A stretch of DNA of 64,000 nucleotides from Casimicrobium huifangae (lineage in GTDB: Bacteria > Pseudomonadota > Gammaproteobacteria > Burkholderiales > Casimicrobiaceae): NCBI RefSeq assembly GCF_009746125.1, contig NZ_CP041352.1, positions 399,847 through 463,846 on the forward strand, read 5' to 3'. The notes under the pieces are model-generated. The model was not told the origin of the DNA. It saw only the letters and a program-made list of their open reading frames with translations, and searched no databases. Numbering within the stretch: the stretch's first letter is position 1; each line of letters starts with the position of its first letter. The translations under genes and the position numbers were made by a program. This document shows, piece after piece, positions 7,611 through 58,738 of this stretch.

Positions 7611-7735
7611 GGCTTTTCTTGGAAAGCCCTATGTAAATAGGGCTCGAAGCCTCAAATCATCGAAAGTCGATAACTGCCTGAATCAGCACTTGAGCCCAAC
7701 ACCGGCAGGGGCTACGTCAAAAAGCTGCTCCTGCC
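7611..7735 (+). repeat. structured intergenic repeat, copy A
   Basis: First of five related elements. In order: hairpin GGCTTT/AAAGCC (7611-7628), GCCCTAT-GTAA-ATAGGGC, the box AAAGTCGA at 7663-7670 (itself inside ATCGA-AAG-TCGAT), GAGCCC at 7692-7697 able to pair with GGGCTC at 7640-7645, then AAAAAGC starting at 7719, inside an outer GGCAGG/CCTGCC stem (7704-7735). The box-to-A-tract distance is 56 nt. It lies between the S9 peptidase gene and rpoH, both on the minus strand. With 7441-7610 it fills a 550-bp stretch without genes. Confidence 0.7.
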
Positions 7736-7742
7736 AAGCGCG

Positions 7743-9725
7743 TCAATTCCGCCGCTGCAGGTAGCGATCGAGAAACAGCGTCTGTGCGGCGAACAGGTAG
7801 TCCACGTTCGACTTTTTGGTGAAACCGTGCCCTTCGTCCTCGGCCAGCACGTACCAGACCGGCGTGCCATTGCCGCGCACCTTGCGCACGATCTGCTCCG
7901 CCTCGGTGACAGGCACCCGCGGATCGTTGCGGCCGTGGCTTACCAGCAGCGGCACCCGGATCTTCTCGGCGTGGCTCAGCGGCGAGATGGCATCGAGGTA
8001 GCGCCGCATGTCAGGCTCGCGCTCGTCGCCGTACTCGGCACGCGCCAGATCGCGGCGATAGGTTTCGGTGCCTTCCAGTAGCGTCACAAAATGCGAAATG
8101 CCCGCAGAATCGATCGCCGCCACCAGTCGTGGCGCATAGGCCACGCTGCTGGCCAGCGCCATGTAACCGCCATAACTGGCCCCGACCACGGCAACGCGGG
8201 TGGGATCAAGATCGGGCTGGGCGTGAATCCAGTCGAGCAGCGCGCCGATGTCCTTCACCGAGTCTTCGCGCTTCTTCTGGTTGTCGGCTTCCATGAAGCG
8301 GCGCCCGAAGCCGGCCGAGCCACGCACGTTCGGGTAAATCAGCGCATAGCCGCGCTCGTTGATCCAGAAATTGGCGCGGCCCCGGAACCCCGGACGCGCC
8401 AGCGATTCCGGCCCACCGTGAATGGAAATGATGACCGGACGCTTGCCGGGAAACTCGCGCGGATTGGGCCGGTGCAGGAAGCCGGTAATGATCATGCTGT
8501 CGAAGCTGCGCCAGGAGATCGCCTCCGCCTCGACAAACGGCCGCCTGACGCCACCGACCGCCGAATGCCCGGTCCAGCGGGTCACGATGTTGTGATCGGT
8601 ATCGAGGGCAAACACCTCGCCGGGCGAATCGGCCGATTCGATCGACAGCGCCAGATCGCGCCCGTTGCGGTGCCAGCTCACTGCGGTGATGACACCCGGC
8701 GGCAGCGCCGGCACCGTCAGCGGCTTCAGATCGCTATCGTAAAGCTTCAGTTTGGTGCTGCCGGCGACGTTGGCCAGCACAGCGATGCGCTTGCCGCCCT
8801 TGGCCACCGACCAGCTCTCGATGTCGAAATCAAAGTCGCGGGTGATCCACTGCCGGTCGCCACTGCGAACGTCAACACGGGTCAGGCGCGCGAAGTCACC
8901 GTCAAAGCGCTTGCGGTAAAGCCAGCGGTCGGACGCGTTCTCATCACCGCTCTCGTAGTCGCTGAGCTCACTGCGCTTGCCGGTCGCCATGTCCAGCGAC
9001 CACAGCTTGGCGCGGGTGCCGGACGCAACCTCGGAGAGGATCAGGCGGTTCTCACGGTCCAGCCAGCGCAGCACCCGCCAGCCGGCGCCGGCGAGCGTTG
9101 CCAGCTTGAAGCGCGCCTCCGGCTGCATCGGATCAATGGCGTAGACATCGACCACCGCCTGCGCGCGACGGCCATTGCGGTCGAGCGGGCGCGAGGTCAC
9201 GACCATTTTGTCCTGCGCGCTATTCCACGGCCCCGGCGAGTAGAACTCGCCAGCGGGGGTCAGCGGCGTCTCGGCCAGCGTCTTCGGGTCCAGTCGGTAA
9301 AGCTGGGTCGCCTCGTCGCCCGAAGAATCGCGGGTGAACAGGATGTAGTCTCCGCGCCGCGGCTCGAACAGCGCATCGCGCACCGGATCGCGACCGCGGG
9401 TGAGCTGGTGCGGCTTGCCCATCGGATCGGTGAGCAGGAACAGTTGCGCGGTATTCCCCGCGCGTCGCATCACCAGCATCTCCGGCGCGGACGGATGCCA
9501 GCTCACAAAGCGGGTGATCGAAAAATCGCCATAGGGGGCGATCTCGCTCGCCAGTGAGGCCGGCACCGGCGGCAAGCCATCGACCCGCAGCGCAGCGGGC
9601 GGCGCCAGCACGGCAGTGGGCGTGCCATTACCGGCGGGTGGGGGCTGCGGCGGTTGCGCCTGTGAGCCGCCTGGCGCAAACAGCAACGCACCGACCGCGA
9701 GTGCGGGGGCCAAAATCAGCCGCAT
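7743..9725 (-). CDS. S9 family (prolyl oligopeptidase-like) serine peptidase, exported
   Basis: Two-domain S9 peptidase: an N-terminal beta-propeller-like region (about residues 60-390) and a C-terminal alpha/beta-hydrolase domain. The catalytic serine lies in VVGASYGGYMAL, the Asp in SHGRNDPRVP and the His in AEDEGHGF. The frame is open further upstream, but Met at 9725 begins MRLILAPALAVGALLF, a signal peptide ending near GSQAQ, and is the sensible start (660 residues). It probably degrades peptides in the periplasm. It is divergent from mutL; the mutL -10-like TACAAT overlaps this start codon. Confidence 0.88.
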   Translation of the reverse strand: MRLILAPALAVGALLFAPGGSQAQPPQPPPAGNGTPTAVLAPPAALRVDGLPPVPASLASEIAPYGDFSITRFVSWHPSAPEMLVMRRAGNTAQLFLLTDPMGKPHQLTRGRDPVRDALFEPRRGDYILFTRDSSGDEATQLYRLDPKTLAETPLTPAGEFYSPGPWNSAQDKMVVTSRPLDRNGRRAQAVVDVYAIDPMQPEARFKLATLAGAGWRVLRWLDRENRLILSEVASGTRAKLWSLDMATGKRSELSDYESGDENASDRWLYRKRFDGDFARLTRVDVRSGDRQWITRDFDFDIESWSVAKGGKRIAVLANVAGSTKLKLYDSDLKPLTVPALPPGVITAVSWHRNGRDLALSIESADSPGEVFALDTDHNIVTRWTGHSAVGGVRRPFVEAEAISWRSFDSMIITGFLHRPNPREFPGKRPVIISIHGGPESLARPGFRGRANFWINERGYALIYPNVRGSAGFGRRFMEADNQKKREDSVKDIGALLDWIHAQPDLDPTRVAVVGASYGGYMALASSVAYAPRLVAAIDSAGISHFVTLLEGTETYRRDLARAEYGDEREPDMRRYLDAISPLSHAEKIRVPLLVSHGRNDPRVPVTEAEQIVRKVRGNGTPVWYVLAEDEGHGFTKKSNVDYLFAAQTLFLDRYLQRRN

Positions 9726-9845
9726 ACAATGGTTCGCGTGAACGACGCGCCCGTACCTCCTGAGTTCAAGACCGCCGCACCTGCGGGCGATCCGTTCCCG
9801 TCTACTGGCGGGTTGCTCAAAACGAGCGCGATTGTGCCAGAACCC

Positions 9846-11738
9846 ATGCCGGACGGGGCTTCCCGCGCGAAAGCTGTCGCCAGTTTGCGACAAATCCGGA
9901 CCTTGCCGGATCATCTGGTCAATCAGATCGCCGCCGGCGAAGTGATCGAACGGCCCGCAGCGGCACTGAAAGAATTGCTGGAGAACGCGGTCGACGGCGG
10001 CGCACGTGCCATCGACATCGAGCTCGCGGGCGGCGGCGCTACCCTTATTCAGGTCAGCGACGACGGTCGCGGCATCGAGCCCGAGCAGCTGCCGCTGGCC
10101 ATCGCGCGGCATGCGACATCCAAGATCGCCAGCTTTGACGATCTCGAATCAGTCGCCAGCTTTGGTTTTCGCGGTGAAGCACTGGCTTCAATTGCCTCGG
10201 TCGCGCGGCTGGCGATCACCAGTCGCACCCAGCGCGGTCACAGCGCCTTCCGGCTGAAGACGGAGGGCGGCACCAGCGATGCAGCAGAACCGGTCAGCGC
10301 GCGACTCGGCACCACCGTCACCGTCGCCGAGCTGTTCTTCAACACGCCGGCGCGGCGCCGCTTCCTGAAATCCGAATCCACCGAATACGCGCATTGCCTC
10401 GACGCCGTGCGCCGCCTCGGTCTGGCGCGCAGCGACATCGCCATCCAGCTCAGTCATAACAATCGCGCCGTGCTGCGCTGGCCGGTGCAGGCGTGGCCGG
10501 CGCGGGTGGCGGCAGTGCTGGGCGATGAGTGGCTGGCGGCGGCGACTGCCGTCGAGGCCGACGGCGGTGTGCTGGCGGTACAGGGCTTCGTGCTGAAGCC
10601 CAACAGCGCGGTGCCCAACCGCGACGCGCAGCATCTGTTCGTGAACGGCCGCTGGGTGCGCGACAAGGTGGTACTGCACGCTATCCGCGATGCCTTGCGC
10701 GACCAGATGCACGGGGCATCAGCACCGGCCTTCGTGTTGAAGCTGACGCTCGACCCGCGTGCGGTGGACGTCAACGTGCATCCCGCCAAGACCGAGGTGC
10801 GCTTCCGCGACTCTCAGGCGGTGCATCAGTTTGTGCGGCGAGCGGTGGAACGTGCCATGAGTGGGGCAGCGGGGAGTCACGCCACCAGCGCTGATGCACC
10901 CGTGGCAGAGGGCGCCGCGTCAGTATCGGCGGCAGCACAAAAACTGTTTGGCGATCGCGTTGCGGCGGCGTTCGCGCGCGCCGCTGACGGCGCCGAGGCC
11001 GCGTCGCGACCGTACCCAACGCGGCCCACTGCGTTCGACTTTGGTGTTGCCGAACGAGCAACGCAATATTTCTTTGCGCCGCCGGAACCGGCAGCCGCAT
11101 CAAGCGTGACGGCGCGGTTGCCTGCAACGGAAAACGCACCGACGCTGCCAGCGATCGAACATCCGCTCGGCTTCGCGCTGGCGCAACTGCACGGCGTCTA
11201 CATCCTCGCGCAAAACAGCAACGGTCTCATCCTCGTCGACATGCATGCCGCGCATGAGCGCATCGTCTACGAAGGCCTGAAAGCGCAGGCCGGTGCGGCG
11301 ATGGCAACGCAGCGGCTGCTGATTCCGAGCGTGGTCAGCGCCAGCGAGAAGGAAGTCGCCGCCGCCGAGACGCATCGCGAAACGCTGCAACAACTGGGCT
11401 TCGATGTCAGCTTGGGCGGCCCGCGTTCACTGACCCTGCGCAGCGTGCCCACGTTGCTGGCTGATGCGGCGCCGGAGGCGTTGCTGCACGGCGTGCTGGC
11501 GGAACTGGACGAACTTGGCGTCAGCGCTGCCATCGAATCGCGCCGCGACGAACTGCTGTCCACCATGGCCTGTCACGCCGCCGTGCGCGCCAATCGCGCG
11601 CTGACCATCGCCGAGATGAACGCCCTGCTGCGCGAAATGGAAGCCACCGAACGCGCCGGCTCCTGCAATCACGGCCGCCCGACGTGGTACCAGCTCACCC
11701 TGCGTGAGCTGGACGCGCTGTTCATGCGGGGACGCTAG
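9846..11738 (+). CDS. mutL: DNA mismatch repair protein MutL
   Basis: GHKL ATPase that couples MutS mismatch recognition to strand incision. N-terminal motifs: NQIAAGEVIERPAAALKELL, DDGRGI, ATSKI and GFRGEALASI. The C-terminal domain keeps the endonuclease motif as DMHAAHERIVYE plus ACHAAVRANR and CNHGRPT, so this MutL should nick DNA itself, consistent with MutH being absent in this group. ATG 9846 gives 630 residues. An upstream ATG at 9729 would leave 3 bp before the divergent gene and overlap a -10-like TACAAT at 9725-9730, and TTG 9885 is also possible. The 3' end overlaps the convergent gene by 17 bp. Confidence 0.93.
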   Translation: MPDGASRAKAVASLRQIRTLPDHLVNQIAAGEVIERPAAALKELLENAVDGGARAIDIELAGGGATLIQVSDDGRGIEPEQLPLAIARHATSKIASFDDLESVASFGFRGEALASIASVARLAITSRTQRGHSAFRLKTEGGTSDAAEPVSARLGTTVTVAELFFNTPARRRFLKSESTEYAHCLDAVRRLGLARSDIAIQLSHNNRAVLRWPVQAWPARVAAVLGDEWLAAATAVEADGGVLAVQGFVLKPNSAVPNRDAQHLFVNGRWVRDKVVLHAIRDALRDQMHGASAPAFVLKLTLDPRAVDVNVHPAKTEVRFRDSQAVHQFVRRAVERAMSGAAGSHATSADAPVAEGAASVSAAAQKLFGDRVAAAFARAADGAEAASRPYPTRPTAFDFGVAERATQYFFAPPEPAAASSVTARLPATENAPTLPAIEHPLGFALAQLHGVYILAQNSNGLILVDMHAAHERIVYEGLKAQAGAAMATQRLLIPSVVSASEKEVAAAETHRETLQQLGFDVSLGGPRSLTLRSVPTLLADAAPEALLHGVLAELDELGVSAAIESRRDELLSTMACHAAVRANRALTIAEMNALLREMEATERAGSCNHGRPTWYQLTLRELDALFMRGR

Positions 11739-12996
11739 TGGTCACGGCGGGCGCGTAGGCTGAAAGCTGCCTGACGGGCGGCAGCAATTGTTCAGCGGTG
11801 AGTACCGGGTAAGTCCACTGCGTGGATGAGACGATTTCCACCACACTCATGCCACACTCGAAGCAGGCTTGCCGATGCAGCAATTGCAGCGGATCAATGC
11901 GATGAGTGGTTACCCACTGTTGGCGCGTGCTGATGATGCGATTGAGCACCGGAGACACCGCGGCGCGGACCGCTGGCGTGCGCGCGCGGAAGAAAACAAT
12001 CGCGGCGGCCGTTGCATGCACGGGATCGAGAAGCTGTTCGCGAGCGGGCTCATGCCAAAGCGAAATCAAATGATCAGCACCCGACTCCGACGCTGCCAGC
12101 GCCGCTTTGCGCCAGAACGTTGTAGCGAAAGAACGGCGTTCACCGTGCCGCTTCAAGGACCGCACGCCAGCAGGCAATCTTGACGGTGAACTCATGTCAA
12201 GGTGGGGGCTTTGCAAGTCATGCGCGGCGAGCAGCAATGCGAAGTCGTCGCCGATCAAAGACGCTTGCGTCGACAACCGTTGTTCGACGTCGATCAGAAT
12301 CCCGCCCAGTCGCTCGCCGCAATCACTGTCGCGCGCAAGACCAGCCAACTGGCGAAACCATTCATGCAGGGCGGGCAATCCCACTGCCCGTGAATGATCG
12401 TAAGCGCCTTCACGTACAACCTGCTGGCACACTCGCCAGAGCACCGGGGACAGAAGCGCCAACGTATTCTGCTCGGCTTGCTCGCGCGCGACCACAGCAG
12501 CTGATTTCACCGGGGTGAACGCACGCAAGGTTGAAGTAGCCATCACATCGGCCGGCGGCAATGCGGTGGGGGCGTCGTAGCCCAGCGTGTGACGCAACAG
12601 CTCCGCGTAACGTATCAGCGTTGGGTCATCCGCCCGTCGGCCGAAGCCGCGCACGGTCGCCCACAAGTGAAGCAGCACGGTAGTGGATTTCAGCCCCAGC
12701 GATTGTTGCCAGCGGGTCATCCGCTTCTGCATCGCCTCGTAACCCAGGGACAACTCGAAACAGACGGCTTTAACGCTGTCGCCGCGTGCCACACGATCAA
12801 GCAACCGCTTGTCGTCGCCGGAGAGCCCGGAGGTGAATTTGCCCCAGCGGGCAGCCGCGCGCGCAAGCTCAATATCGGAAAGCATGGCGGGCGAAGACGT
12901 ATCTTGATGCGACCGGCTATACATGAATTGTTCGATTGCGAAAGGCGCTTGTTCCAAATTATGCGGTAAGCCCGTTGTCTGAAAACGGACAGTCAT
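11722..12996 (-). CDS. unrecognised HTH-containing protein, candidate regulator of the adjacent export locus
   Basis: 424 residues with no family I recognise. Residues about 55-108 (LSGDDKRLLDRVARGD ... LGYEAMQKRMTRWQQSLGL) resemble a LuxR/sigma-region-4-type helix-turn-helix. The rest is helical with many Leu/Ala/Arg and includes FxxxFWRKAAL-like stretches, no signal peptide and no membrane segments. The start is unclear: ATGs at 12996, 12924 and 12885 are in frame and none has a good ribosome-binding site. It is transcribed away from the HlyD gene and ends inside the mutL tail. A regulatory role over the neighbouring exporter is inference from divergence and the HTH-like region. Confidence 0.6.
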   Translation of the reverse strand: MTVRFQTTGLPHNLEQAPFAIEQFMYSRSHQDTSSPAMLSDIELARAAARWGKFTSGLSGDDKRLLDRVARGDSVKAVCFELSLGYEAMQKRMTRWQQSLGLKSTTVLLHLWATVRGFGRRADDPTLIRYAELLRHTLGYDAPTALPPADVMATSTLRAFTPVKSAAVVAREQAEQNTLALLSPVLWRVCQQVVREGAYDHSRAVGLPALHEWFRQLAGLARDSDCGERLGGILIDVEQRLSTQASLIGDDFALLLAAHDLQSPHLDMSSPSRLPAGVRSLKRHGERRSFATTFWRKAALAASESGADHLISLWHEPAREQLLDPVHATAAAIVFFRARTPAVRAAVSPVLNRIISTRQQWVTTHRIDPLQLLHRQACFECGMSVVEIVSSTQWTYPVLTAEQLLPPVRQLSAYAPAVTTSVPA

Positions 12997-13035
12997 GCGT
13001 CTGAAAAGAGACGCAGGAACGTCGCAAAACGGACA
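12982..13035. promoter_or_regulatory. repeats in the divergent spacer before the export locus
   Basis: AAAACGGACA occurs twice (12982-12991 and 13026-13035), 44 bp apart, about four helical turns. Between them lies a perfect 7-bp hairpin TGCGTCT-gaaaag-AGACGCA (12996-13015). The first copy overlaps the upstream-most start of the minus-strand HTH gene, which would fit one of the downstream starts. Candidate operator for the divergent pair. Confidence 0.4.
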
Positions 13036-13124
13036 TCACCGCCGGCACGAAACGCTCTAGATTCATCACTGTCGGCGCTTCGACGTGAAGCTGGCCACAC
13101 CGACCAGACGTAACGCCTTAGCTG

Positions 13125-14513: not shown

Positions 14514-14821
14514 TGAATCTACTCTCCCCTGAACACACGCTGCTGGTTACAGGTGGTGTCGGTCGCGCATCAAACATCCCTGACAAGGGTCGATTGGCCA
14601 TCCACTCCACGGTACAGGAGACGCTGTCGTCCGAATCGTGCGCGGCCGACGATCTGGGACGGTCCCTACCTGCTGCCCTGGTCATTGTCGCTGCCGACGA
14701 AGCCTCCTCAGGGCTGATTCATACCCAACGCTTCGTCCGCTTCGATGCCAATCGGTTGGCCCCGGGGGAACCGGATGTCGATGATTTCAATGGCTTTAAT
14801 GATCAAGGTTTGAGCGTCTGA
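14513..14821 (+). CDS. small double-glycine leader peptide 1 (putative exported cargo)
   Basis: 102-residue protein whose first 15 residues, MNLLSPEHTLLVTGG, fit the double-glycine leader pattern: Leu -12, Ser -11, a hydrophobic Val at -4 and GG at -2/-1. The expected Glu -8 and Leu -7 are replaced by His and Thr. Cleavage after GG would release about 87 residues, acidic towards the C-terminus (EPDVDDFNGFND), with one Cys. No known bacteriocin core is recognised. It is translationally coupled to the HlyD adaptor and in line with a C39-peptidase ABC exporter, the enzyme class that removes such leaders. Toxin, signal or other cargo cannot be distinguished. Confidence 0.65.
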   Translation: MNLLSPEHTLLVTGGVGRASNIPDKGRLAIHSTVQETLSSESCAADDLGRSLPAALVIVAADEASSGLIHTQRFVRFDANRLAPGEPDVDDFNGFNDQGLSV

Positions 14822-14892
14822 AAAAGGTTAGATGCTCAACCATGAACGAGGCGCCACGCTCGTCTTCAGTGGTATTTGCAGGACACTTTGAC

Positions 14893-15219: not shown

Positions 15220-15292
15220 CTTGCTGGGTGAGACCTCGACTGGACTAGCTTTGCACGCTCAATCGAGGGATGCCGCACAAATATGCATTCGC

Positions 15293-15358: not shown

Positions 15359-15461
15359 TATGTGCGTTTGCGAGCTTGTGCCTTGTCCGCCGAGTCGCCT
15401 TTCGATTTCGATTTAGCCGTAGCCTAGCTCATTGGCGAAATATGTAGTCGTTGGTTTCGAA

Positions 15462-23871: not shown

Positions 23872-24510
23872 ATGGATAAGTTCACCGTTCACACCGGTCT
23901 CGTCGCGCCAATGGATCGCGCCAATGTCGACACCGATGCGATCATCCCGAAGCAGTTCCTGAAGTCGATCAAGCGCACCGGCTACGGGCCGAACTGCTTT
24001 GACGAATGGCGCTATCTTGATGTTGGCCAGCCGGGCATGGACAACAGCAAGCGCCCGCTCAACCCGCAATTCGTGCTCAATGAGCAGCGTTTTCAGGGCG
24101 CCTCGATCCTGCTGGCGCGGCAAAACTTCGGCTGCGGCTCGTCGCGCGAACATGCGCCGTGGGCATTGCAGCAGAACGGCTATCGCGTTGTGATCGCACC
24201 GTCGTTCGGCGACATCTTCTACAACAACTCGCTCAACAATGGCCTGCTGGTGATCCGCTTGCCGGACGCGCAGGTTGATCGCCTGTTTCACGACTGCGCC
24301 GCGTTCCCCGGCTTCCAGTTGACGGTCGATCTCGACCAGCAGGTAGTGCGCGCCACCGATGGCAGCTTTGCGTTTGCCTTCGACATCGATGCCTCGCGCC
24401 GCGAGCGTCTGCTCAACGGCTGGGACGACATCAGCCTCACGCTCAAGAACAGCGACGCTATCCGCGCGTTCGAGGCGAAGCACTACGCGGCGCAGCCGTG
24501 GCTGGCGTAG
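23872..24510 (+). CDS. leuD: 3-isopropylmalate dehydratase small subunit
   Basis: Swivel-domain subunit that completes isopropylmalate isomerase with LeuC. The 212-residue protein shows [20 protein letters not shown] near the start, the conserved [18 protein letters not shown] and [18 protein letters not shown]. It lies downstream of leuC and the entericidin-like gene, and is separated from leuB by a repeat-bearing spacer. Confidence 0.97.
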
Positions 24511-24567
24511 CGCGGGACTTCCTGCCATCGTTGAAGCACTGACTTGCCAACAGCTCCGCTCGTAAAC

Positions 24568-24669
24568 GCCCATTTCATGTGGGCTTTATGCGGAAAATTC
24601 GGACAAGTCGATAACCGGCCATTTATGGCTTTAAGCCCTGATTGAACGGGGCTTTCAGCAAAAAGCTGA
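24568..24669 (+). repeat. structured intergenic repeat, copy B
   Basis: Same layout as copy A: GCCCA/TGGGC hairpin (24568-24584), box CAAGTCGA at 24604-24611, GGCCAT/ATGGCT hairpin, AGCCC at 24634-24638 able to pair back to GGGCT at 24581 or forward to GGGGCT near 24648, and the terminal hairpin TCAGC-aaaaa-GCTGA (24655-24669). The box-to-A-tract distance is 56 nt. It lies between leuD and leuB, both plus strand. Confidence 0.7.
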
Positions 24670-24748
24670 TGCGCACGGCGAGCGCGCAGATGGCTTCCAG
24701 TCCTGACGCCCGCCGCCATGTTCACTGCGCAATCACCACAACCACACC

Positions 24749-25813
24749 ATGAAGATCCTCATCCTCCCCGGCGACGGTATTGGCCCTGAAATTGTTGGCC
24801 AGGCCGTTCGTGTGCTCGAAAAATTCAAGGCGGAAGGGGTGCCGATCGAGCTGTCGCACGGTCTGCTCGGCGGCGCGGCGCACGACGCGCATGGTCACCC
24901 GTATCCCGAGGTGACGCAGCAGCAGGCGCGCGCGGCGGACGCCATCCTGCTCGGCTGCGTCGGCGGTCCGCAGTACGACACGCTGCCGCGTGCTGTACGG
25001 CCAGAGCAGGGCCTGCTCGGCATCCGCAAGGATCTCAAGCTGTTCGCCAATCTGCGCCCGGCAATGCTCTATCCCGAGCTGGCCGCGTCGTCGTCGTTGA
25101 AGCCCGAAGTGGTGGCCGGCCTCGACATCATGATCATCCGCGAATTGACGGGTGACATCTACTTCGGCCAGCCGCGCGGTCGCCGCACCAATGCAGCGGG
25201 CGAGGACGAAGGCTTCGACACCATGCACTACGCGAAGAGCGAGGTGGAGCGCATTGCGCACGTCGGTTTCCGTACGGCGATGAAGCGCAACAAAAAGCTG
25301 TGCAGCGTCGACAAGGCCAACGTGCTCGACACCTCGATCCTGTGGCGCGAAGTGGTCACCGAGATCGGCAAGCAGTACCCGGAAGTTCAGCTCTCGCACA
25401 TGTATGTCGACAACGCGGCGATGCAGCTGGTGCGCGCGCCGAAGCAGTTCGACGTGATTGTCACTGGCAACATCTTCGGCGACATCCTCTCCGACGAAGC
25501 CTCGATGCTGGCGGGCTCCATCGGCATGCTGCCTTCGGCGTCGCTCGACGCCAGCAACAAGGGGTTATACGAACCGATCCACGGCTCGGCGCCGGACATC
25601 GCCGGCCAGAACAAGGCCAACCCGATCGCCACGGTACTTTCGCTGGCGATGATGATGCGCTATTCGTTCAGCCGGGAAGATCTCGCACAACGCATTGAAA
25701 CCGGCGTCCGGAAAGTGCTGGCGAGTGGCGCGCGAACCGGCGATATCGCCCTGCCGGGTGAGGCCGTCATCGGCACCAAGGCGATGGGCGACGCACTGGT
25801 TGCCGCCGTGTAG
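24749..25813 (+). CDS. leuB: 3-isopropylmalate dehydrogenase
   Basis: NAD-dependent oxidative decarboxylase of leucine biosynthesis. The 354-residue protein contains [10 protein letters not shown] at the start, [11 protein letters not shown], the substrate loop [52 protein letters not shown] and [18 protein letters not shown]. It is the last leu gene here. In many relatives asd follows leuB; here the next gene is fimV. Confidence 0.97.
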
Positions 25814-33417: not shown

Positions 33418-33423
33418 TGCAAC

Positions 33424-36005: not shown

Positions 36006-36923
36006 ATGCGCGTCGCTGCCAATGGCCTCGAATTCGAGGTCGAGATTGACGAGCCTGCGCCCGCTACGCTGCGCGAGGGCGTCGAGCCCGCCAGCGTGTT
36101 GCTGATCATGGGCCTGGGTATGCAGCTGATTGCTTGGCCGGAGGCGCTGGTGAGCGCGCTGACCGGCGCTGGCTACCGCGTGATCCGCTTTGACAACCGC
36201 GATATCGGCCTGTCGTCGCACACACCGGGCAAGGCGCCGAATCTGGCGCTGATGACCATCAAATACCGTCTCGGTGTGAACATCCGCACCGCCTACACGC
36301 TGCGGCACATGGTCGACGACACCGCTGGCGTGCTCGATGCGCTGGGCGTGACGCGCTGCCACGTTGTCGGTGTCTCGATGGGCGGCATGATTGCGCAGGG
36401 GCTGGCCAGCCGATACCCCGATCGCGTGCAGTCGCTGGTCAGCATCATGAGCACCACTGGCGCGCGGCATCTGCCCAAGGCAACGTCCAAGGCCTCGTTC
36501 GCCTTCATCGCCCGCCCGCGCAGCCGCGAGCGCGATGTGGTCGTCGAGCATCTGGCCAAGGTGATGCGGGTGATCGGCAGCCCGAAATACCCGACGCCGC
36601 TGCCCGAGCTGCGAGAGCGCATCGGCGCCGCTTATGACCGCGCCTACTATCCGGCGGGCATGATCAAGCAGCTCGCCGCCATCGTCGCCTCCGGCGACCG
36701 CACGGATGAAGTGCGCGCCATCAAGGCGCCCACGCTGGTGATCCACGGTCGCGACGACCCGCTGGTGCCGGTGCAAAACGGCGAGGAAACCGCGCGGCGA
36801 ATCCCGGGCAGCGAAATCGTCACCATCATCGGCATGGGCCACGACTTCGGCCCGCTGCCGCAGATCACGCAGAAAGTGCTGGCGTTTCTCGCCAAACACG
36901 CGGGCAAAACAGCATCAGCTTGA
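36006..36923 (+). CDS. alpha/beta hydrolase
   Basis: 305-residue alpha/beta-fold hydrolase of the esterase/haloperoxidase type. LLIMGLGMQLIAWPEAL carries the oxyanion segment, VVGVSMGGMIAQ the catalytic Ser, IHGRDDPLVPV the Asp and GMGHDF the His. The insertion SSHTPGKAPNLALMTIKYRLG is typical of proteins annotated as lipid or polyketide hydrolases. It is in the same transcription unit as the preceding hydrolase and WS/DGAT. No signal peptide; substrate unknown. Confidence 0.88.
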   Translation: MRVAANGLEFEVEIDEPAPATLREGVEPASVLLIMGLGMQLIAWPEALVSALTGAGYRVIRFDNRDIGLSSHTPGKAPNLALMTIKYRLGVNIRTAYTLRHMVDDTAGVLDALGVTRCHVVGVSMGGMIAQGLASRYPDRVQSLVSIMSTTGARHLPKATSKASFAFIARPRSRERDVVVEHLAKVMRVIGSPKYPTPLPELRERIGAAYDRAYYPAGMIKQLAAIVASGDRTDEVRAIKAPTLVIHGRDDPLVPVQNGEETARRIPGSEIVTIIGMGHDFGPLPQITQKVLAFLAKHAGKTASA

Positions 36924-36940
36924 GCGTCAAATGGCGTCAG

Positions 36941-37033
36941 CGCTGGGCTCAATGCATGATTCGACCAAAAGTCGACAAAGCATCATTTACGGTGATTAGC
37001 CCAGCGCGGATGCGGCTTTCAACGAAAAGCCGC
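36941..37033 (+). repeat. structured intergenic repeat, copy C
   Basis: Clearest copy. A 9-bp stem CGCTGGGCT (36941-36949) / AGCCCAGCG (36998-37006) encloses TCGAC-caaaa-GTCGA with the box AAAGTCGA at 36968-36975, followed by the terminal hairpin GCGGCTTT-caacga-AAAGCCGC (37012-37033). The box-to-A-tract alignment offset is 56 nt. It lies between the convergent hydrolase and azlD genes and reaches the azlD stop codon, so it may also serve as a terminator. Confidence 0.75.
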
Positions 37034-37374
37034 TAACCCGCCAGCCACAAAATCGCGTGCAGCGACCCCATGCCGACGATCAGCGGCACCAGCATGCCGC
37101 CGCGCCACCAGGCGTAGATGCCGGTGAGGATGGCCGCCACCACGTGCGGCCAGCGAGCGTGCAGGTCAAACGCGCCGCCGTTGAGCAGGATCAGCGGCAG
37201 CACCAGCGCCGCAAAGATCGCTGGCACAGCCAGTTGCAGCGCCCGCTCAAAGCGCGGCGGCAGCTTCTTGCCAGCCAGCAGGCCGATGAACGAATAGCGG
37301 ATCGCAAACGTGCCCACCGCCAGCAGTGCAATCGCCAGCCAGCCGCTCGGTGTGCCAAAACTGCCCCAGTTCAT
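37033..37374 (-). CDS. azlD: AzlD family branched-chain amino acid exporter subunit
   Basis: Small membrane subunit (113 residues) of the AzlCD exporter for branched-chain amino acids. It has about four hydrophobic segments (WLAIALLAVGTFAIRYSFIGLL, AVPAIFAALVLPLILL, HVVAAILTGIYAWW, VGMGSLHAILWL). The TFAIRYSF motif near the N-terminus is typical of AzlD. The frame is open much further upstream across azlC; the start is ATG 37374, which overlaps the azlC stop by four bases. Confidence 0.9.
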   Translation of the reverse strand: MNWGSFGTPSGWLAIALLAVGTFAIRYSFIGLLAGKKLPPRFERALQLAVPAIFAALVLPLILLNGGAFDLHARWPHVVAAILTGIYAWWRGGMLVPLIVGMGSLHAILWLAG

Positions 37375-52123: not shown

Positions 52124-52347
52124 GCGACTGGTAGTACTTTCAATCAGCAAAGTGCCGTTACATTCGACCTCTGGTTCCAGCTGGATGCAAAATTTGCTTC
52201 GACGGGGCATTCTCAACTTCGAGCAGTAGCCAATTGCCGGTTCTGGGGTGGCTCCAAGCGTGTTTATGTAGCGCAAATGCATCCTGTTGTCGCATACTCC
52301 GTACCACCAGCGTCTTAGTGAACACTTACATAGTCTGGGATATACAA

Positions 52348-53799
52348 ATGATCGCTCTCTCCTCAATAGCGCGCGCGGCTCTGATTGCAGGTGCGCTAGC
52401 TGCGCTACCCAGCGCAGCCGAGCAGCTCGTCAGCTGCGCGTTTTCCCCGGGCGCAGCGGTATCGGGCGACCTGATCAGCCGCGGTCTCTATCTGAACAAT
52501 TTCCGCGGGCAGAGCCTGCGTTCCATCAAGCTGCGGCATACCGCCAGCGTACCTGGCAGTTACAAAATCACGTTGACCGCGCGCCTCGGCGACTTCGCGG
52601 GCTCGGTAATTGGCGAACCTTTCACCGCCAGTGTCAATCTCGGCACGACTGTCGGCACCGATGTCACCTACGAATTGGGAGACATACCCGTTACCCCGGG
52701 CAGTACTGTCACATTCGCCATGACGGCGACGGGGCCGGGCGCTGTTTTTTATGACACCGGGACAGTGCTGTGCGCCGATGTATACGAAACCGAAGATACT
52801 TCGTTGCCGCTGAGCACCATCCGGCGTAACGGCATGGGACTGGAGGTGCGTGGACGCGCTGTGCCGCAGACGTTTTACGATTGTGCATTCGGATCCGGCG
52901 GCGATTTTGTTTCGCGGGGCATTTTTCTTGCGAACTACCCTGGCCAGACGCTACGCAAAGTAGCGTTGCGGTATGAGGCGTCGAGCGCCGGCGCGCGGAC
53001 GCTAAAGCTGACCGCTCGTCAGGATGGTTACGACGGCAGCGTCATTGGCGAGCCGCAGACGAAAATCCTCAACTTCGGGGTTCCTGGCGTTGGTGGTGGC
53101 CAGGTTGTGGAGTGGGATTTTGGTGGCGCGTTTGTAAAGCAGAACGGGACGATTACGTTTACCCACGAGCTTGTTCGTGGAGGCGATGTATTTCACTCCG
53201 GCACCACGCTCGCTACATGCCCTGACGTCATCGAAACGGAAGGTACTACAGGGACGTTGGATATCAATCGCGGCACGCGCGGCATACGCGTTACCGGGGA
53301 TCGCGAGGCTGGCTACCGCAAAGTGGTCGAATATTATCAACCCGGCTTGAGGCACTACTTTGTAACCGGCCGCCCCAGCGAACAGGCGCTGCTTGATCAG
53401 TACCCCGAGCTGTTTCAGCGCACTGGTGCAACTTTCCTGGCCTTCCCATCGCAGGGGGCTCCCTTGGGGAGCGTGCCGATCTGCCGTTTCTACCTTCCGC
53501 CAGCGCGAGGTGGATCGAACTCGCACTTCTATGGCCAGCCGGCAGATTGCAATGCGGTGATCGCCACAGGTAATCCCACATTCCAGTTTGAGGGCTATGA
53601 CTTTGCGCTCTACACGCCCATCTCAGGTAATTGCCCTGGCTATGCCCCAAACAAAATTTATCGGTCGTTCAACAACCGTGTCGCGCAGAACGACGGCAAC
53701 CACCGATACACCACGACGGTGGGCAACTACAACAGCATGACTGCATTGGGCTGGGTTGCGGAGGGCGCGGTGTTCTGCAGCGACACAACGGCGCCGTAA
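52348..53799 (+). CDS. secreted protein with tandem duplicated domain and DUF5648-like C-terminus
   Basis: 483 residues from ATG 52348. Signal peptide about 1-24 (AALIAGALAALPSAAEQ). Two homologous beta-rich domains in tandem, about 28-165 and 175-310: CAFSPGAAVSGDLISRGLYLNNFRGQSLR versus CAFGSGGDFVSRGIFLANYPGQTLR, each followed by LTAR...G.SVIGEP. The C-terminal 150 residues (VVEYYQPGLRHYFVTGRPSEQALLD ... YDFALYT) resemble DUF5648-type repeats of beta-proteobacterial surface proteins. It is followed by a strong terminator. Function unknown; secreted or surface location inferred. Confidence 0.75.
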   Translation: MIALSSIARAALIAGALAALPSAAEQLVSCAFSPGAAVSGDLISRGLYLNNFRGQSLRSIKLRHTASVPGSYKITLTARLGDFAGSVIGEPFTASVNLGTTVGTDVTYELGDIPVTPGSTVTFAMTATGPGAVFYDTGTVLCADVYETEDTSLPLSTIRRNGMGLEVRGRAVPQTFYDCAFGSGGDFVSRGIFLANYPGQTLRKVALRYEASSAGARTLKLTARQDGYDGSVIGEPQTKILNFGVPGVGGGQVVEWDFGGAFVKQNGTITFTHELVRGGDVFHSGTTLATCPDVIETEGTTGTLDINRGTRGIRVTGDREAGYRKVVEYYQPGLRHYFVTGRPSEQALLDQYPELFQRTGATFLAFPSQGAPLGSVPICRFYLPPARGGSNSHFYGQPADCNAVIATGNPTFQFEGYDFALYTPISGNCPGYAPNKIYRSFNNRVAQNDGNHRYTTTVGNYNSMTALGWVAEGAVFCSDTTAP

Positions 53800-53856
53800 G
53801 CGATGCAATCCTGATACGCCACGCTGGTGGATCAGACAGCTGATCGACCGCAATGA

Positions 53857-53880
53857 AAAGGGCCGCTTCTGCGGCCCTTT
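53857..53880. terminator. bidirectional rho-independent terminator
   Basis: AAAGGGCCGC-ttct-GCGGCCCTTT, a perfect 10-bp stem with A/T ends, followed by GTCTTTTC. Lies between the convergent secreted-protein gene and the S9 peptidase gene. Confidence 0.9.
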
Positions 53881-53901
53881 GTCTTTTCGGGTGTCGGAAC
53901 G

Positions 53902-55890
53902 TTACGGCTTGCCGAGGTGCCTGGCGAAGAACTGCTCAGTGCGCGTGTAGAAGTCAATCACGTTCCCGGGCGCATTGAAGCCATGTGCCTCGTCGAGGTA
54001 GACCTTGTAATCGAGTGGCTTGCCGGCTTTCTCCATCGCGTCGCGGAAGGTGGTGCCGTGGATCAGCGGAACGCGGATGTCCTGACCGCCCATCGTCAGC
54101 ATCACGGCGGCCTTGATCTTGTCGGCATTCTTGGCCGGTGAGGTGGCGTCGAAGCGGGCGCGATCGGCGCTGATATCGCCGATCCAGCGCTTGAAGTCGG
54201 TCTGGTAGTAGTCGCTGTAGCGTGCGGTGTCAGACCACGTCACGTTCTGTTTGAGCTCGATGTCGGTCACTGCCACGTAGGCATGGCTGCACTTCCAGAG
54301 ATCGGGGTCGCGCACCAGCCCCTGCAGCGCGGCGTAGCCGCCATAGCTGCCGCCGAATAGGCACATGCGGCTTTTGTCGACAATGCCCTGCGCCACCAGA
54401 TGCAGCGCGCCGTCGGTGATGTCGTCCTGCATCGTCAGGCCCCACTGCTTGAAGCTCGACTGATAGTGCTTCGAACCGAAGCCGGTGGACCCGCGCGGTT
54501 CCGGCTCCAGCACCGCGTAGCCGCGTGACGCGAAGAACTGTGCAGTTGGCCAGCGCCCCCACTGGATGCCGTGATAGCTGCGCACCCAGGGACCGCCATG
54601 AATGTGCACCACCAGCGGCAGGTTCTTCGCTTCGCTGCCGCGCGGCACCGTCAGCCATGCCGGGATATTGAGGCCGTCACGCGCCTTGTACATCACGAAG
54701 CGGCGTTCCGGCATCAGTGCCGATGGCAGCCACTCGCGGGTCGCAGCGATCTTGCCCAGCGAACGCTGCTGCGTGTCGAAGATGTAGTAGCTGCCTGCGT
54801 CCGTTGCCGAGCGCGCGAAGACGAGCGCATAACGTGCAGCATCGTCGCCCGGCGTAATGTGGTTGACGGTATCGGGCAGTGCCTTGTCAATGCCGGCCTG
54901 AACGGCGGCATAGCGCTCGTCGAACCAGCTGGTACCTGGCATCTCGGCGCTGTGGCGGATACCAAGTACTTTGCCGCTCGCAGGGTGAATTACCAGACCA
55001 TCATCGAGATCGAGCCAGGGATGCTGTGCAACCACCTCTCCCAGTTGCTTCTTCGCGATGTCATAGCGGTAGATGGCGCTGCGGTCGCCGCCGTGACGGC
55101 TGGCAACGAACAGTGTCTGGTCGTCGTCGAAGGCAAGCGGCCGCAGTCGGTCGAGATCGCCACTTAGTTCACCGATTTGCAGCCAGCTATCGGCGGCGGA
55201 TTGGCGGTGCCAGAGCGTGCGCTTGCGGGCCTTGTCGGCGGACTCACGTGGCTCCACTCGCATCGCGATGCGGGGCTCAAGGCGGTGATCAAGTACCCAG
55301 TCGGCCACGCGGCCGGGTGAATCAAACGTGAGCAGTTTGGTGCGGCCGGTTCGGGTGTCGTAGCGATAGACGTCCTCCGACTGGATGTCGCGCAGGTGCG
55401 TGCTGATGATCAACTCGCCGCTGCCGTCGCGGGTGCGGGCGAGGATGTCGAAGCTGCCGCGTACGTCCTGCGCGAGGTTGCGCGAATTCTTTCCATCAGT
55501 GTCGATGGCGATCATCGCCCCGCGTCGCCAGACGCCGGTTTCCAGTTCACGGTTTGACGCGCGGAAAATCAGCCTGCCATCGTCCACCCAGGTGAACCAG
55601 TTGACGTCCACCGTCTTGAAGTCAGTGACTGCGGTCGACTGTTTGCTGTCGAGATCGATGACGACGAGGTTTTCGCGACCGTTGACCGGCGCGACTGCTG
55701 CCAGCTTGCGGCCGTTCGGCGACATCGCCATTTGCGAATAGCGTGGCAGCCGGAAGAATTCACCGACCGGGATATCGGCGGCGGTCTTGTAGCCGCTGCC
55801 GGCTGTCGTAGCTTGCCCTTGAACCGCCAGAGGCACGCAAATGACAAGCCAGGTGAGCGCGAGGCGGGGCAAACGGGAGAGGATTTTCAT
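53902..55890 (-). CDS. S9 family (prolyl oligopeptidase-like) serine peptidase, exported
   Basis: 662 residues with a signal peptide (about 1-26, LALTWLVICVPLAVQGQA). Propeller-like N-terminal domain (about 35-390) and a C-terminal hydrolase domain with the Ser in LFGGSYGGYAAL, the Asp in GGQDIRVPL and the His in DEAHGF. Same family as the S9 protein at 7.7-9.7 kb but clearly different in sequence. A TonB-dependent receptor gene lies upstream on the same strand, suggesting linked peptide degradation and uptake, which is inference. Confidence 0.9.
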   Translation of the reverse strand: MKILSRLPRLALTWLVICVPLAVQGQATTAGSGYKTAADIPVGEFFRLPRYSQMAMSPNGRKLAAVAPVNGRENLVVIDLDSKQSTAVTDFKTVDVNWFTWVDDGRLIFRASNRELETGVWRRGAMIAIDTDGKNSRNLAQDVRGSFDILARTRDGSGELIISTHLRDIQSEDVYRYDTRTGRTKLLTFDSPGRVADWVLDHRLEPRIAMRVEPRESADKARKRTLWHRQSAADSWLQIGELSGDLDRLRPLAFDDDQTLFVASRHGGDRSAIYRYDIAKKQLGEVVAQHPWLDLDDGLVIHPASGKVLGIRHSAEMPGTSWFDERYAAVQAGIDKALPDTVNHITPGDDAARYALVFARSATDAGSYYIFDTQQRSLGKIAATREWLPSALMPERRFVMYKARDGLNIPAWLTVPRGSEAKNLPLVVHIHGGPWVRSYHGIQWGRWPTAQFFASRGYAVLEPEPRGSTGFGSKHYQSSFKQWGLTMQDDITDGALHLVAQGIVDKSRMCLFGGSYGGYAALQGLVRDPDLWKCSHAYVAVTDIELKQNVTWSDTARYSDYYQTDFKRWIGDISADRARFDATSPAKNADKIKAAVMLTMGGQDIRVPLIHGTTFRDAMEKAGKPLDYKVYLDEAHGFNAPGNVIDFYTRTEQFFARHLGKP

Positions 55891-55969
55891 CGGGTCATGG
55901 GCGTAACCTGAACGGCGCGCGAACCACGCGAAGCTACCGTTATCAGCTCTACGCTGGAATCCTTGTTTT

Positions 55970-56070
55970 AATGGGGCTCAGCGCGGAAAGGCGCTAAAGT
56001 CGACACAACGTCAAATCGGGCGCCACGCCCATTGAACTGGCGGTCTCGGCGAAAAGCCGTTAACCGCCAG
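55970..56070 (+). repeat. structured intergenic repeat, copy D
   Basis: AATGGG/CCCATT outer pairing (55970-55975 with 56028-56033), AGCGC-ggaaag-GCGCT, box AAAGTCGA at 55996-56003, GGGCG-cca-CGCCC, and a nested terminal hairpin CTGGCGGT...ACCGCCAG (56037-56070) with inner CGGC-gaaaa-GCCG. The box-to-A-tract offset is 55 nt. It lies between the TonB receptor gene and the S9 peptidase gene, both on the minus strand. Confidence 0.7.
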
Positions 56071-56083
56071 TTGCCTTGGATGG

Positions 56084-58495
56084 CTAGAACTTCTTCCAGA
56101 AGCGGATGAAGTAGCTGGCACCGTTGAGGCCGAACTGCACGCTGTCGTAGATGAAGCCGTTGTCGGTTTCGTTCGGGTCCTGTTTGCTCGGCTTCACGTT
56201 GAAGATGTTGTTGCCGCCAATGGTGACCTTGGTGTTCTTGTCGAACGCGTAGGTCAGCGCCAGATCGGCCGAGGTCTTCGGCGCGTAGCGCGCATTCGGT
56301 ACGCCTGCGGCAGTGCCCGAGAAGGTGCCGAGCGTCTGTGAGCCGAAGTGAATGACCTTGAGACTGGTCTCCCACGGGCCGAGTGCATGATCGAAGCCAA
56401 GCGTAGCCTTCATGCGCGGGCCGCCCTGCTCAATGAACAGGCGCTCGCGCTCAGACAGCAGCACATCTTCAAAGCCGGCCAGTGACGCTGGCGTCTTGAC
56501 GCCGGTGACGCGGGTCTTGCTGTAGTTGAACGCCAGGAAGGTATTCAGCTTGCCGCGACCCAGCTCGCCCTTGTGCGCGACGGTGAGATCGAGCCCCTGT
56601 GTGCGGGTGTTGACCGAGTTGACGAAGAACTGTGCCTGACCAACACCAAGCGCGGCGAGCGTGGCGCCGAGTGATGGGTAGTTGTCGGCGTCAAAGCGGC
56701 CGGAGAGCACGATGCGATCCTTGATGTCGATCTGGTAGAGATCGGCGGTCACCGCCAGCGCGCGCGACGGATTCCAGGTCATGCCCAGCGTGAAATTGTT
56801 CGACTTCTCTTCCTTCAATTTCGGGATGCCGGCGGCATTGGCGATTGCGCTGCCGTTGGGTGCCAGCACCACATCGAGTGGCTGGCCGCTGATGAAGTCG
56901 GTAAATGTCGACGAGAAGTAAACCTGCTGCAACGAAGGCGCGCGGAAGCCCGTGCTCGCCGAGCCGCGCAGCAGCACCTGATCGCTGGCCTTGAAGCTTG
57001 CTGCCACCTTGCCGGTGAGCGTGGAACCGAAGTCGCTGTAGCGCTCGCCGCGCAACGCGGTCGCGAGTTTGAGGCGCGTGGTGAGATCGGTTTCAACGTC
57101 CACATAGCCGGCAACGCTGTTGCGACTCTTGCTGGTGGCGTCGCCCGGCTGGAAGCCCGGGAAGCCCTGGCTGCCGGCGTTGCCGCCGAAGCCGACGCCG
57201 TCGGCGTCGTTGTAGGAGCCCAGTTCGCCAGCGAAGATCTGGTAATTCTCGCGCCGGTACTCGGCACCGAAGGCGACGTTCATGCCGTTGGCCACGCCCG
57301 GGAAGAAGCGGCTGAAGTCGGCGTTGGTGGTGAGCTGCGAGAACGAGAAACCACCGGCGTTGAATGCGGTTGGGCTGCGCCCCGCGCCGCCGTGCAGCAG
57401 GTCGTAGTTGGCGATGGAGGCGTTCAGCGTGTTGCTGATGTTGTACTTGAGTTTGTTGTAGCCATAGGTCTGCGAGAAATCGGCATTCCACTCGCCGATC
57501 TGCCGCTTGTAGCCGACAGTCATGTAGCGGTCTTCGATGTCGCCGTTGATGAACGGCACGAAGCCGTCCGGGTACATGGCCGCCGAGTTGCGCGAGGGGA
57601 TGTCATCACTGCCGATACCGCCGCGGGCGAACGCCGCCGAGGAGGCGTCGCGGGTTTGGTAGCCGAAGGTGTAGTAGAGCTTGGCGGCGCCGCTGACCGG
57701 CACTTCGCCGTTGACGTACAGCGTGGCGTTTTGCGTTTTGGTGTCGCCGATGATGCGCGGGTTGCCCGGCTCGGCGCGGTTGCTGCGGCCGCGGTCAAGG
57801 AATTCAGCGGTGATGCCGGTGGTGCCGCCGTTGCCGGTAGCGAAGCCGCAGTAGGCGGAGGCGAGATAGTTCTTGCCGTCACCCGCCGAATATTGGCCGT
57901 AACCGAGTACGGCCTCACAGCCGGCGCGCTTCTTGAGCGTGATGTCGATCACGCCGGCGATGGCGTCGGAGCCATATTGCGCCGCCGCGCCGTCGCGCAG
58001 CACCTGCACGCTGTCGATGGCCAGCATCGGGATGGTATTGAGGTCGGTGCCGGTATTGCCGCGGTTGCGGGCGCCGAACAGGTTGACCAGCGCCGTGGTG
58101 TGCTTGCGCTTGCCGTTGACCAGCACCAGCGTCTGGTCGGAGCCGAGTCCGCGCAGCGCGGCGGAGTCCACCAGGTCAGCGCCATCGGCGCCGGTCTGGC
58201 GCGTCGAGTTGAACGACGGCGAGATGTACTGCAGCGACTGCGCGAGGTCGAACTGCCCGCCCTGTTCGGCCGATTTCGACATCGGAATGAAATCCACCGG
58301 CACCACGGTGTCGGTGGCCGAAGCGTTGACGCGGCGGGTGCCGACGATGGTGACCGTTTCGACGACGGTGGTGTCCTTTTTCTCGGCAGCGGGCGCCGTT
58401 TGTGCCGTGGCGATGGTGGAGGAGAGACCAGTGGCGCTGGCGGCGCCGTAGAGGCTGAGCAGGATAGCCCGCCGCAGTGTTGTCGTTGTTGTCAT
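56084..58495 (-). CDS. TonB-dependent outer-membrane receptor
   Basis: 803 residues from ATG 58495 (the frame opens at 58603, but the signal peptide begins at TTTTTLRRAILLSLYGAASATG). N-terminal plug: TVTIVGTRRVNASATDTVVPVDFIP, DLAQSLQYISPSFN, ALRGLGSDQTLVLVNGKRKH and the VLRDGAAAQYGSDAIAGVIDI motif. Then a 22-stranded-type barrel with the RGSASTGFRAPSLQQVYF region and a C-terminal strand ending in Phe (SYFIRFWKKF) as needed for BAM. Ligand unknown; this subtype is often annotated for oligopeptides or oligosaccharides, and the adjacent S9 peptidase favours peptides. Confidence 0.93.
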   Translation of the reverse strand: MTTTTTLRRAILLSLYGAASATGLSSTIATAQTAPAAEKKDTTVVETVTIVGTRRVNASATDTVVPVDFIPMSKSAEQGGQFDLAQSLQYISPSFNSTRQTGADGADLVDSAALRGLGSDQTLVLVNGKRKHTTALVNLFGARNRGNTGTDLNTIPMLAIDSVQVLRDGAAAQYGSDAIAGVIDITLKKRAGCEAVLGYGQYSAGDGKNYLASAYCGFATGNGGTTGITAEFLDRGRSNRAEPGNPRIIGDTKTQNATLYVNGEVPVSGAAKLYYTFGYQTRDASSAAFARGGIGSDDIPSRNSAAMYPDGFVPFINGDIEDRYMTVGYKRQIGEWNADFSQTYGYNKLKYNISNTLNASIANYDLLHGGAGRSPTAFNAGGFSFSQLTTNADFSRFFPGVANGMNVAFGAEYRRENYQIFAGELGSYNDADGVGFGGNAGSQGFPGFQPGDATSKSRNSVAGYVDVETDLTTRLKLATALRGERYSDFGSTLTGKVAASFKASDQVLLRGSASTGFRAPSLQQVYFSSTFTDFISGQPLDVVLAPNGSAIANAAGIPKLKEEKSNNFTLGMTWNPSRALAVTADLYQIDIKDRIVLSGRFDADNYPSLGATLAALGVGQAQFFVNSVNTRTQGLDLTVAHKGELGRGKLNTFLAFNYSKTRVTGVKTPASLAGFEDVLLSERERLFIEQGGPRMKATLGFDHALGPWETSLKVIHFGSQTLGTFSGTAAGVPNARYAPKTSADLALTYAFDKNTKVTIGGNNIFNVKPSKQDPNETDNGFIYDSVQFGLNGASYFIRFWKKF

Positions 58496-58636
58496 TTCAG
58501 GGTACCCCGTGCAGGATGTGAGTGAGGTCGCGGCGGCCAACTGCACACATCGGGGCCGACGCTCGGAAAATTCAGTGTACGGGGCGCAAGTGGCTGCGGT
58601 CAACGATTTGCAACGGCAACAGCCTTTGCCGTCAAA

Positions 58637-58738
58637 GCCCGTCGCATAAGGGCATCGTCTCCAAATGGCAGAAAGTCGACTTTTCAGTTAATGAGAAAAA
58701 AGGCCGCAATCGGATGCGGGTTTCATCAAAAAGATGAA
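58637..58738 (+). repeat. structured intergenic repeat, copy E
   Basis: Most divergent copy. GCCC-N9-GGGC (58637-58653), box AAAGTCGA at 58672-58679 inside the palindrome AAGTCGACTT, and terminal hairpin TTCATC-aaaaa-GATGAA (58722-58738). The box-to-A-tract distance is 56 nt, as in copies A, B and C. It lies between the TonB receptor gene and the SAF oxidoreductase gene. The rest of this 281-bp spacer holds an ACGGCAA/TTGCCGT hairpin near 58612-58632 and nothing else I recognise. Confidence 0.6.

Follow-up and report, generated by a model that had tools for sequence, protein, structure and literature searches.

A family of near-palindromic intergenic DNA elements of about 120 bp in one bacterial genus, considered as candidate protein-binding sites

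A 64,000-nt stretch of the Casimicrobium huifangae chromosome (contig NZ_CP041352.1; "the window" in the following) carries five copies of an intergenic element, which were confirmed to be members of a family of near-palindromic DNA sites of about 120 bp occurring in one bacterial genus. The conserved feature is the sequence and spacing of a double-stranded dyad, and its symmetry sits in the consensus, as it does in a dyad bound by protein, without being kept up by compensating changes. With about even confidence, each copy is read as a dispersed, dyad-symmetric, double-stranded site of about 120 bp which would be bound by one putative multi-subunit DNA-binding complex, probably architectural, and not as a transcript; the specificity of this complex would have changed together with its sites.

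Identification and geometry of the element

A search of the genome with the pattern AAGTCGA N35-47 CNANRAAAAGNNG gave 16 matches and its backward control none. One match is a window copy and one (L004) was dropped as not being a copy; the 14 others were aligned with the five window copies (alignment A3, 19 copies). This alignment revealed that the element reaches further left than first given and that it is a near-palindrome. A sequence-only model of the type A element (R1), whose training copies include the five window copies, found exactly five places in the window (plus strand, E-values 1e-22 to 4e-18). Owing to the near-palindromy, every copy gives a second, weaker match on the minus strand (9e-13 to 8e-8). 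These are the five places named in an earlier, sequence-only reading of this DNA, and all landmarks described there are present. The start given there needs correction, as it lies 17-26 nt further left in four copies (24551, 36917, 55944 and 58620 instead of 24568, 36941, 55970 and 58637).

The consensus was derived from 139 copies, 93 from the genome of the window (own genome) and 46 from relatives, mostly from G011. It consists of CAGCTTTT, an inverted repeat, an A-tract and AAAGTCGACTTT, followed by the mirror image, so that the central AAAGTCGACTTT is surrounded by a pair each of outer motifs (A.CAGCTTTT), inner inverted repeats and A-tracts, the last at about 13 bp from the centre. The type A consensus reads CAgCTTTT...tgaAA.cc.cATt..a..tGGGCT....gc...Aaat.gc..AAAGTCGActtt..gc.a.tt...gc..t.AGCCCa..t..aATGgg..TTTCa.caAAAAGcTG.T. 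The centre AAGTCGA (columns 54-60) holds 1.5-1.9 bits per column. Spacing is nearly invariant: 137 of the 139 copies have no insertion, and internal deletions are absent from 97, single in 38 and double in four. The ends form terminal inverted repeats (CAGCTTTT / AAAAGCTG) and are sharp, with at most 0.23 bits per position beyond A.CAG and CTG.T.

The A/T triplets of the two tracts vary (AAA, AAT, ATT, TTT) yet avoid the TpA step, which was found in 7 of 130 first tracts against 38 expected (lowest of 2000 shuffles, 28) and in 3 of 130 second tracts against 43 expected (lowest of 2000 shuffles, 31). A-tracts without TpA are a mark of narrow-minor-groove shape.

The window copies, all of type A and without assigned strand, and their central motifs are:

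7611..7729: copy 1; R1 67.1 bits (+) and 38.4 bits (-); between an open reading frame (ORF) on the plus strand ending at 7359 (no Pfam match) and an S9 peptidase gene at 7743-10112 (-)
7664..7670 (+): central motif AAGTCGA of copy 1, the dyad centre lying in GTCGAY
24551..24671: copy 2; R1 75.8 bits (+) and 44.0 bits (-); between leuD (23872-24510) and leuB (24749-25813)
24605..24611 (+): central motif of copy 2
36917..37036: copy 3; R1 64.0 bits (+) and 34.2 bits (-); between convergent genes for an alpha/beta hydrolase (+) and an AzlD-domain protein (-)
36969..36975 (+): central motif of copy 3
55944..56062: copy 4; R1 61.8 bits (+) and 28.2 bits (-); downstream of a TonB-dependent receptor gene at 56084-58603 (-)
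55997..56003 (+): central motif of copy 4
58620..58738: copy 5; R1 61.1 bits (+) and 37.3 bits (-); upstream of the same receptor gene
58673..58679 (+): central motif of copy 5

The GC content of these copies is 47-56%, that of the window as a whole 62.8%. Copies 4 and 5 (55944-58738) bracket the receptor gene at a distance of 2.7 kb and are the closest pair among the 114 places found in the genome (see below).

Sequence constraint at orthologous sites

Flanks homologous to a compared own copy were found for 18 of 40 distinct G011 copies. The set of own/G011 pairs analysed comprised 17, after leuD-leuB had been added and L040/L189 and L241/L171 had been dropped from 19, their neighbouring segments not bracketing the site. 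Within these pairs, identity is 95% across the 33 columns of highest conservation, and the freest 26 columns agree at 31%, compared to 29% for non-orthologues. Since score had decided the choice of both sides in the own/G011 pairs, and their alignment was made in a single orientation, the test was repeated with a set chosen by flanks. It contained 16 orthologous type A elements at the sites S2, S3, S5, S6 and leuD-leuB, taken from G011, G013, G015, G001, G004 and G005; S1 and S4 lay outside the orthologue comparison. Here, of the 519 positions aligned in 35 core columns, 466 agree with the consensus (89.8%; with unaligned ends counted as lost, 83% of 560), and 28 free columns match the own-genome orthologue at 30.5% and non-orthologues at 24.6%.

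The elements are therefore constrained as double-stranded DNA, the core being kept while the free columns are nearly saturated. This supports the earlier claim of a multi-copy intergenic element of fixed geometry under selection. The leuD-leuB intergenic region is also occupied in G011, G004 and G001, and S6 is empty in G012. Absence at many orthologous sites indicates that single sites are dispensable; as judged from these comparisons, single sites come and go, and those that are retained keep the core. Recent duplicates were not found among the 93 own copies, which are about one third of the estimated total (identity 0.57 on average and 0.71 at most).

Two dialects of the inner repeat

Type A elements have the inner repeat GCCCAT..AATTGGGCT. 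In G012, G003 and G007 it is replaced by AACGACC..GGTCGTT (type B), with the same centre, geometry, ends and A/T tracts. Spacers of type B measure exactly 48 and 49 nt in 24 of 26 pattern matches from 28 loci of these three genomes, two of the 26 being duplicates. For the type B model (R2), L331 and L332 were left out as duplicates of L380 and L391. From the analysis in general, L047 was dropped as a duplicate of L165, and L267 and L268 were not used.

At E ≤ 1e-6, R2 matched at least 150 times, i.e., with all scored candidates, in each of G012, G007 and G003. Counts elsewhere were 11 in the own genome, 68 in G011, 37 in G001, 33 in G015, 12 in G013, two each in G004 and G005, and zero in the other seven genus genomes. 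A half-site pattern for type B gave 72 matches in G012, 92 in G007, 41 in G003, three in G011, one in G008 and none in the other 12 including the own genome; its backward control gave none in all 17 genus genomes. With a dialect-free pattern, 46 of 50 listed halves of the own genome contained GGGC, and of 50 typed for G012, 33 were of type B and two of type A.

At orthologous sites, type B elements (S2, S3 and S5 in G012, S5 and S6 in G007, S6 in G003) scored 55-80 bits with R2 and at most 15 bits with R1, and the elements of type A species scored in reverse (R2 at most 28.5 bits), where R2 training included L301, L305 and L381 and not L274, L319 and L308, R1 training included the own copies at S4, S5 and S6, and S3 in G012 was positioned from its left flank only. 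The left junction of S5 is alike in G007 (type B) and in G015 and G001 (type A). Model scores and patterns taken together, each dialect was shown to dominate whole genomes and to differ between species at orthologous sites. In a tree of eight concatenated proteins, G012 groups with G000 and G011 (support 0.92), and G003 groups with G007 elsewhere (support 1.00); hence, the dialect either changed at least twice or both dialects are ancestral.

Test for a conserved RNA fold

The sequence-only reading had proposed compensating stems maintained by selection on structure, a proposal which the larger alignments do not support. Folded singly, the five copies are more stable than their shuffles (z -2.2 to -4.7), as is expected of a near-palindrome. 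RNAalifold predicted four pairs in A3, none with compensatory changes, and dyad pairing in the 19 copies amounts to 498 matches, below the 523 expected from column composition. An all-pairs covariation scan of the 139 copies (5205 testable column pairs) gave nothing beyond chance, near-invariant column pairs being uninformative either way. The z-scores had a standard deviation of 1.01 and a maximum of 3.48, with no value exceeding 3.5 and a single one lying below -3.5; for runs of neighbouring pairs, the highest score was 3.7 when all diagonals were considered and 2.6 along the dyad. Thus, the significant covariation that had been anticipated is absent among these pairs. Rfam gave no match in the window and, for eight loci at E ≤ 0.1, two weak matches, neither overlapping a copy, which agrees with the earlier statement that no RNA family fits.

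Copy number and gene context

On the own 4.47-Mb chromosome, R1 gave at least 150 matches at E ≤ 1, which correspond to at least 114 places. This number is a floor, because 150 of the 1026 first-look candidates were scored and every one of these matched. A pattern free of the inner motif gave at least 37 own places among the matches listed, 15 of which lie within the 114 by a comparison made by eye. As rough estimates, capture-recapture suggests about 280 copies genome-wide and the density in the window (5 in 64 kb) about 350.

Of the 114 places, 93 were studied as aligned copies. All except two are intergenic (91 of 93; simple ORF calls, overlaps of up to 60 bp allowed), and the remaining two overlap an ORF call. 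The 91 copies lie between co-directional (49), convergent (26) or divergent (16) genes. Orientation is independent of transcription, as 25 of the 49 copies between co-directional genes point in the same and 24 in the opposite direction. Median distances are 28 nt to 3' ends and 65 nt to 5' ends.

R1 scored better on the plus strand at 64 and on the minus strand at 50 of the 114 places. The plus orientation of all five window copies, described earlier as a polarity, therefore reduces to a weak asymmetry, five of five having a chance of about 0.06. The first ORF of the contig, at position 1, is DnaA-like and the next one DnaN-like, as judged from their motifs, and the replication origin is thus probably located there. 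A strand bias relative to the origin was not detected, since 65 of the 114 places run with the presumed fork (p = 0.16). The excess in the origin half (67 of 114 places, p = 0.07; Kolmogorov-Smirnov test, p = 0.05) is not convincing, and the coefficient of variation of the gaps between places is 0.86 (random range 0.83-1.18).

Distribution among genomes

Beyond the own chromosome, the further copies predicted by the sequence-only reading were found as well. R1 detected the element in 10 of 40 relatives including the own genome, all of the genus, and in 0 of 23 genomes of other genera. The inner-motif-free pattern occurred in 11 of 17 genus genomes and in 0 of 63 of other genera, with at most one backward-control match per genome. 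A stricter pattern was searched in 399 genomes of the order and occurred in G000 and G008 only, of six genus genomes drawn, and in none of the 393 others, which overlap the 63; elements with a different centre or different ends escape such pattern searches. Among relatives selected by LeuB (at most 74% identity among the matches listed), 43 of 80 loci, and 18 of the genomes behind these loci, were without R1 match. Viral contigs did not contain the strict pattern, and carriage by phages was rejected on this ground.

Interpretation as a probable protein-binding site

If each copy is such a binding site, the protein would recognise the motifs by way of the major groove and the A-tracts by the shape of the minor groove. 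The putative complex would keep about 120 bp bent or wrapped in a symmetric arrangement, at some 280-350 intergenic places. The two dialects suggest that the protein may have changed specificity and that the sites followed.

Several observations weigh against this reading. A composite site of 120 bp would hardly be expected to arise other than by copying, but the 93 own copies included no similar pair. Orthologous own/G011 pairs are slightly more alike than shuffled ones (1189 matches vs 1136 +/- 18; highest shuffle 1205), so that saturation of the free positions is incomplete, and the count of core columns took in only sites with a recognisable element. Decayed orthologues exist: S3 in G004 scores 16 bits, and the alignment of S6 in G013 covers 19 of the 35 core columns. 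The leuD-leuB element is present in 4 of 16 genomes, the other 12 being without a match of either type at E ≤ 1, and none of ten genomes with both flanks of S2 exceeds 9.2 bits there. Matches are entirely missing from six genus genomes (G002, G006, G009, G010, G014, G016); five of these species form one clade with support 1.00, G016 being outside the tree. Furthermore, the dialects are not entirely pure. The best of the R2 matches in G011 (68 in total) reaches 6e-17, and the 40 fetched G011 copies, with at most 32.8 bits, seem to fall below it, so that G011 probably contains a few B-like copies; L321 (S6 of G001) scores alike with both models (R1 22.8 bits, R2 25.8 bits). Finally, the nearness to 3' ends and the mild origin-side excess could be a bias of insertion or survival.

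A wider form of the binding-site reading is put forward tentatively, and we would sooner expect it to fail than to hold: a chromosome-wide nucleoprotein code, in which a putative complex would wrap a rigid site of about 120 bp at some 300 places, and whose recognition code would have changed at least twice in the genus (in G012 and in the ancestor of G003 and G007), the sites being re-encoded in place. Were this true, it would be a large-site chromosome-organising system for which we know of no described counterpart. So far, palindromes interspersed in bacterial genomes have been interpreted variously, as junk, as mobile DNA, as RNA elements or as protein sites. The present family can be tested by sequence, and a protein reader is indicated by purifying selection without covariation, selection on A-tract shape and species dialects at orthologous sites. 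The dialects should also make this reader findable, since its gene is expected to vary with them (grouping G012 with G003 and G007) and to be missing or changed in element-free species. If the binding-site reading is true, the family would be a natural record of hundreds of sites and their protein shifting in specificity together.

Alternative explanations

The main rival, unlikely in our judgement though to be taken seriously, is an old family of miniature inverted repeats similar to ERIC or MITE (miniature inverted-repeat transposable element) sequences. A transposase would have dispersed it in an ancestor shared by part of the genus, and it would now be immobile, with old recognition parts kept by a domesticated transposase or repressor and with the dialects as two related subfamilies. 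In size, palindromy, copy number and position between genes, the element is similar to ERIC-type repeats as generally described, the ends are sharp and bear terminal inverted repeats, and the same site is occupied or empty depending on the species. However, the 93 own copies, which make up roughly a third of the estimated number, include no two that are alike, and passive decay would not bring the free positions near saturation between orthologues while the core stays. In addition, no conserved bases flank the ends (at most 0.23 bits per position) and no common target sequence lies outside them, type A and type B copies occupy the same sites with similar left junctions at S5, and RAYT transposases do not track the element (see below).

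An operator of one global transcription regulator would likewise be a constrained dyad DNA site, and some neighbouring genes could still be regulated; the many copies between convergent genes and near 3' ends and the lack of orientation to transcription make this explanation improbable. Even less is to be expected of a species-recognition watermark comparable to DNA uptake sequences (DUS), where a receptor for incoming DNA would read the site and the dialects would be species barriers. A DUS occurs in thousands of copies; the element, by contrast, is a dyad of composite build, about 120 bp long, with A-tracts and in some 300 copies. In favour of the comparison, DUS likewise form dialects around a conserved core of a sequence found throughout the genome (PMC3630211). 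A similarly small probability is assigned to a bidirectional transcription terminator or stabiliser of mRNA 3' ends. Copies are indeed located near gene 3' ends, and 26 of 91 between convergent genes; nevertheless, 16 of 91 lie between divergent genes, hairpin covariation is missing, and the 3' outer motif bears an A-run and not a T-run on either strand. A structured small RNA or other RNA element is scarcely credible despite the folding energies of the five copies, given the lack of covariation, of strand bias and of Rfam matches on a copy in the window or the eight loci.

Comparison with known systems

The element was filed as a member of none of the following: ERIC-type repeats, DUS and nucleoid-protein sites. 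ERIC or IRU-type repeats of enterobacteria are likewise palindromic, intergenic, about 120 bp long, present in many copies and of unknown function. By this general description, they were set apart from the element with its identity of about 57% between copies, constrained core columns, TpA-poor A-tracts and species dialects. Sites of nucleoid proteins (matS/MatP, SBS/SlmA, parS/ParB, octamer wrapping by Lrp) are similar in logic, being dispersed dyad sites with an architectural or chromosome protein as reader. The sites matS, SBS and parS are 12-16 bp long, and we know of no nucleoid-protein system with a rigid site of about 120 bp plus inner dialects. Integron attC sites have RYYYAAC/GTTRRRY boxes and are arranged in a cassette array; such boxes were not seen by eye in the consensus, and the copies stand singly between chromosomal genes, e.g., leuD and leuB.

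Among the papers listed in literature searches, no title or beginning of an abstract described the element. RU-1 is a 127-bp intergenic repeat unit (PMC2759123). The DUS dialects of Neisseriaceae share with the element one genome-wide sequence, a conserved core and species dialects (PMC3630211), from which the element differs in length, copy number and dyad architecture. REPs measure 20-40 bp and carry GTAG or CGTC tags (PMC3733652, PMC8049555). Like the element, REP, BIME and REPIN sequences are high-copy intergenic palindromes located mostly between co-directional and convergent genes; in contrast, the constrained unit of the element is about 120 bp, the GTAG/CGTC tags having been looked for by eye in the consensus only. 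RAYT genes (PF01797) are present in 15 of 17 genus genomes, including the element-free G002, G006, G009, G010 and G014, and were not found in the element-bearing G008. Among 30 fetched RAYT loci, a subset of the RAYT matches, there was one weak element match (L350 of G001, 1263-1339, 18.4 bits). A RAYT link was rejected, as RAYT presence is independent of the element.

Other repeats at the compared sites

In G009, G002 and G006 (L145, L149, L150), where the element is absent from the leuD-leuB gap, this gap contains a different palindromic repeat (CATCCCGGCGAAGGCCGGGACCC-like), and a GC-rich stretch related to it lies beside the element in the leuD-leuB gap of G001 (L141). The same gap of G012, G014, G010 and G015 (L139, L144, L146, L148) has short, partly self-complementary runs, e.g., ACGAATGACGAAGGACG or GTGAGCAGTGA. 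In the S3 region of G011 (L286), a long GC-rich inverted repeat (CTCCCCGGCTCGCCGGGGGAGG-like) follows beyond the element, and the spacer is extended to 352 nt.

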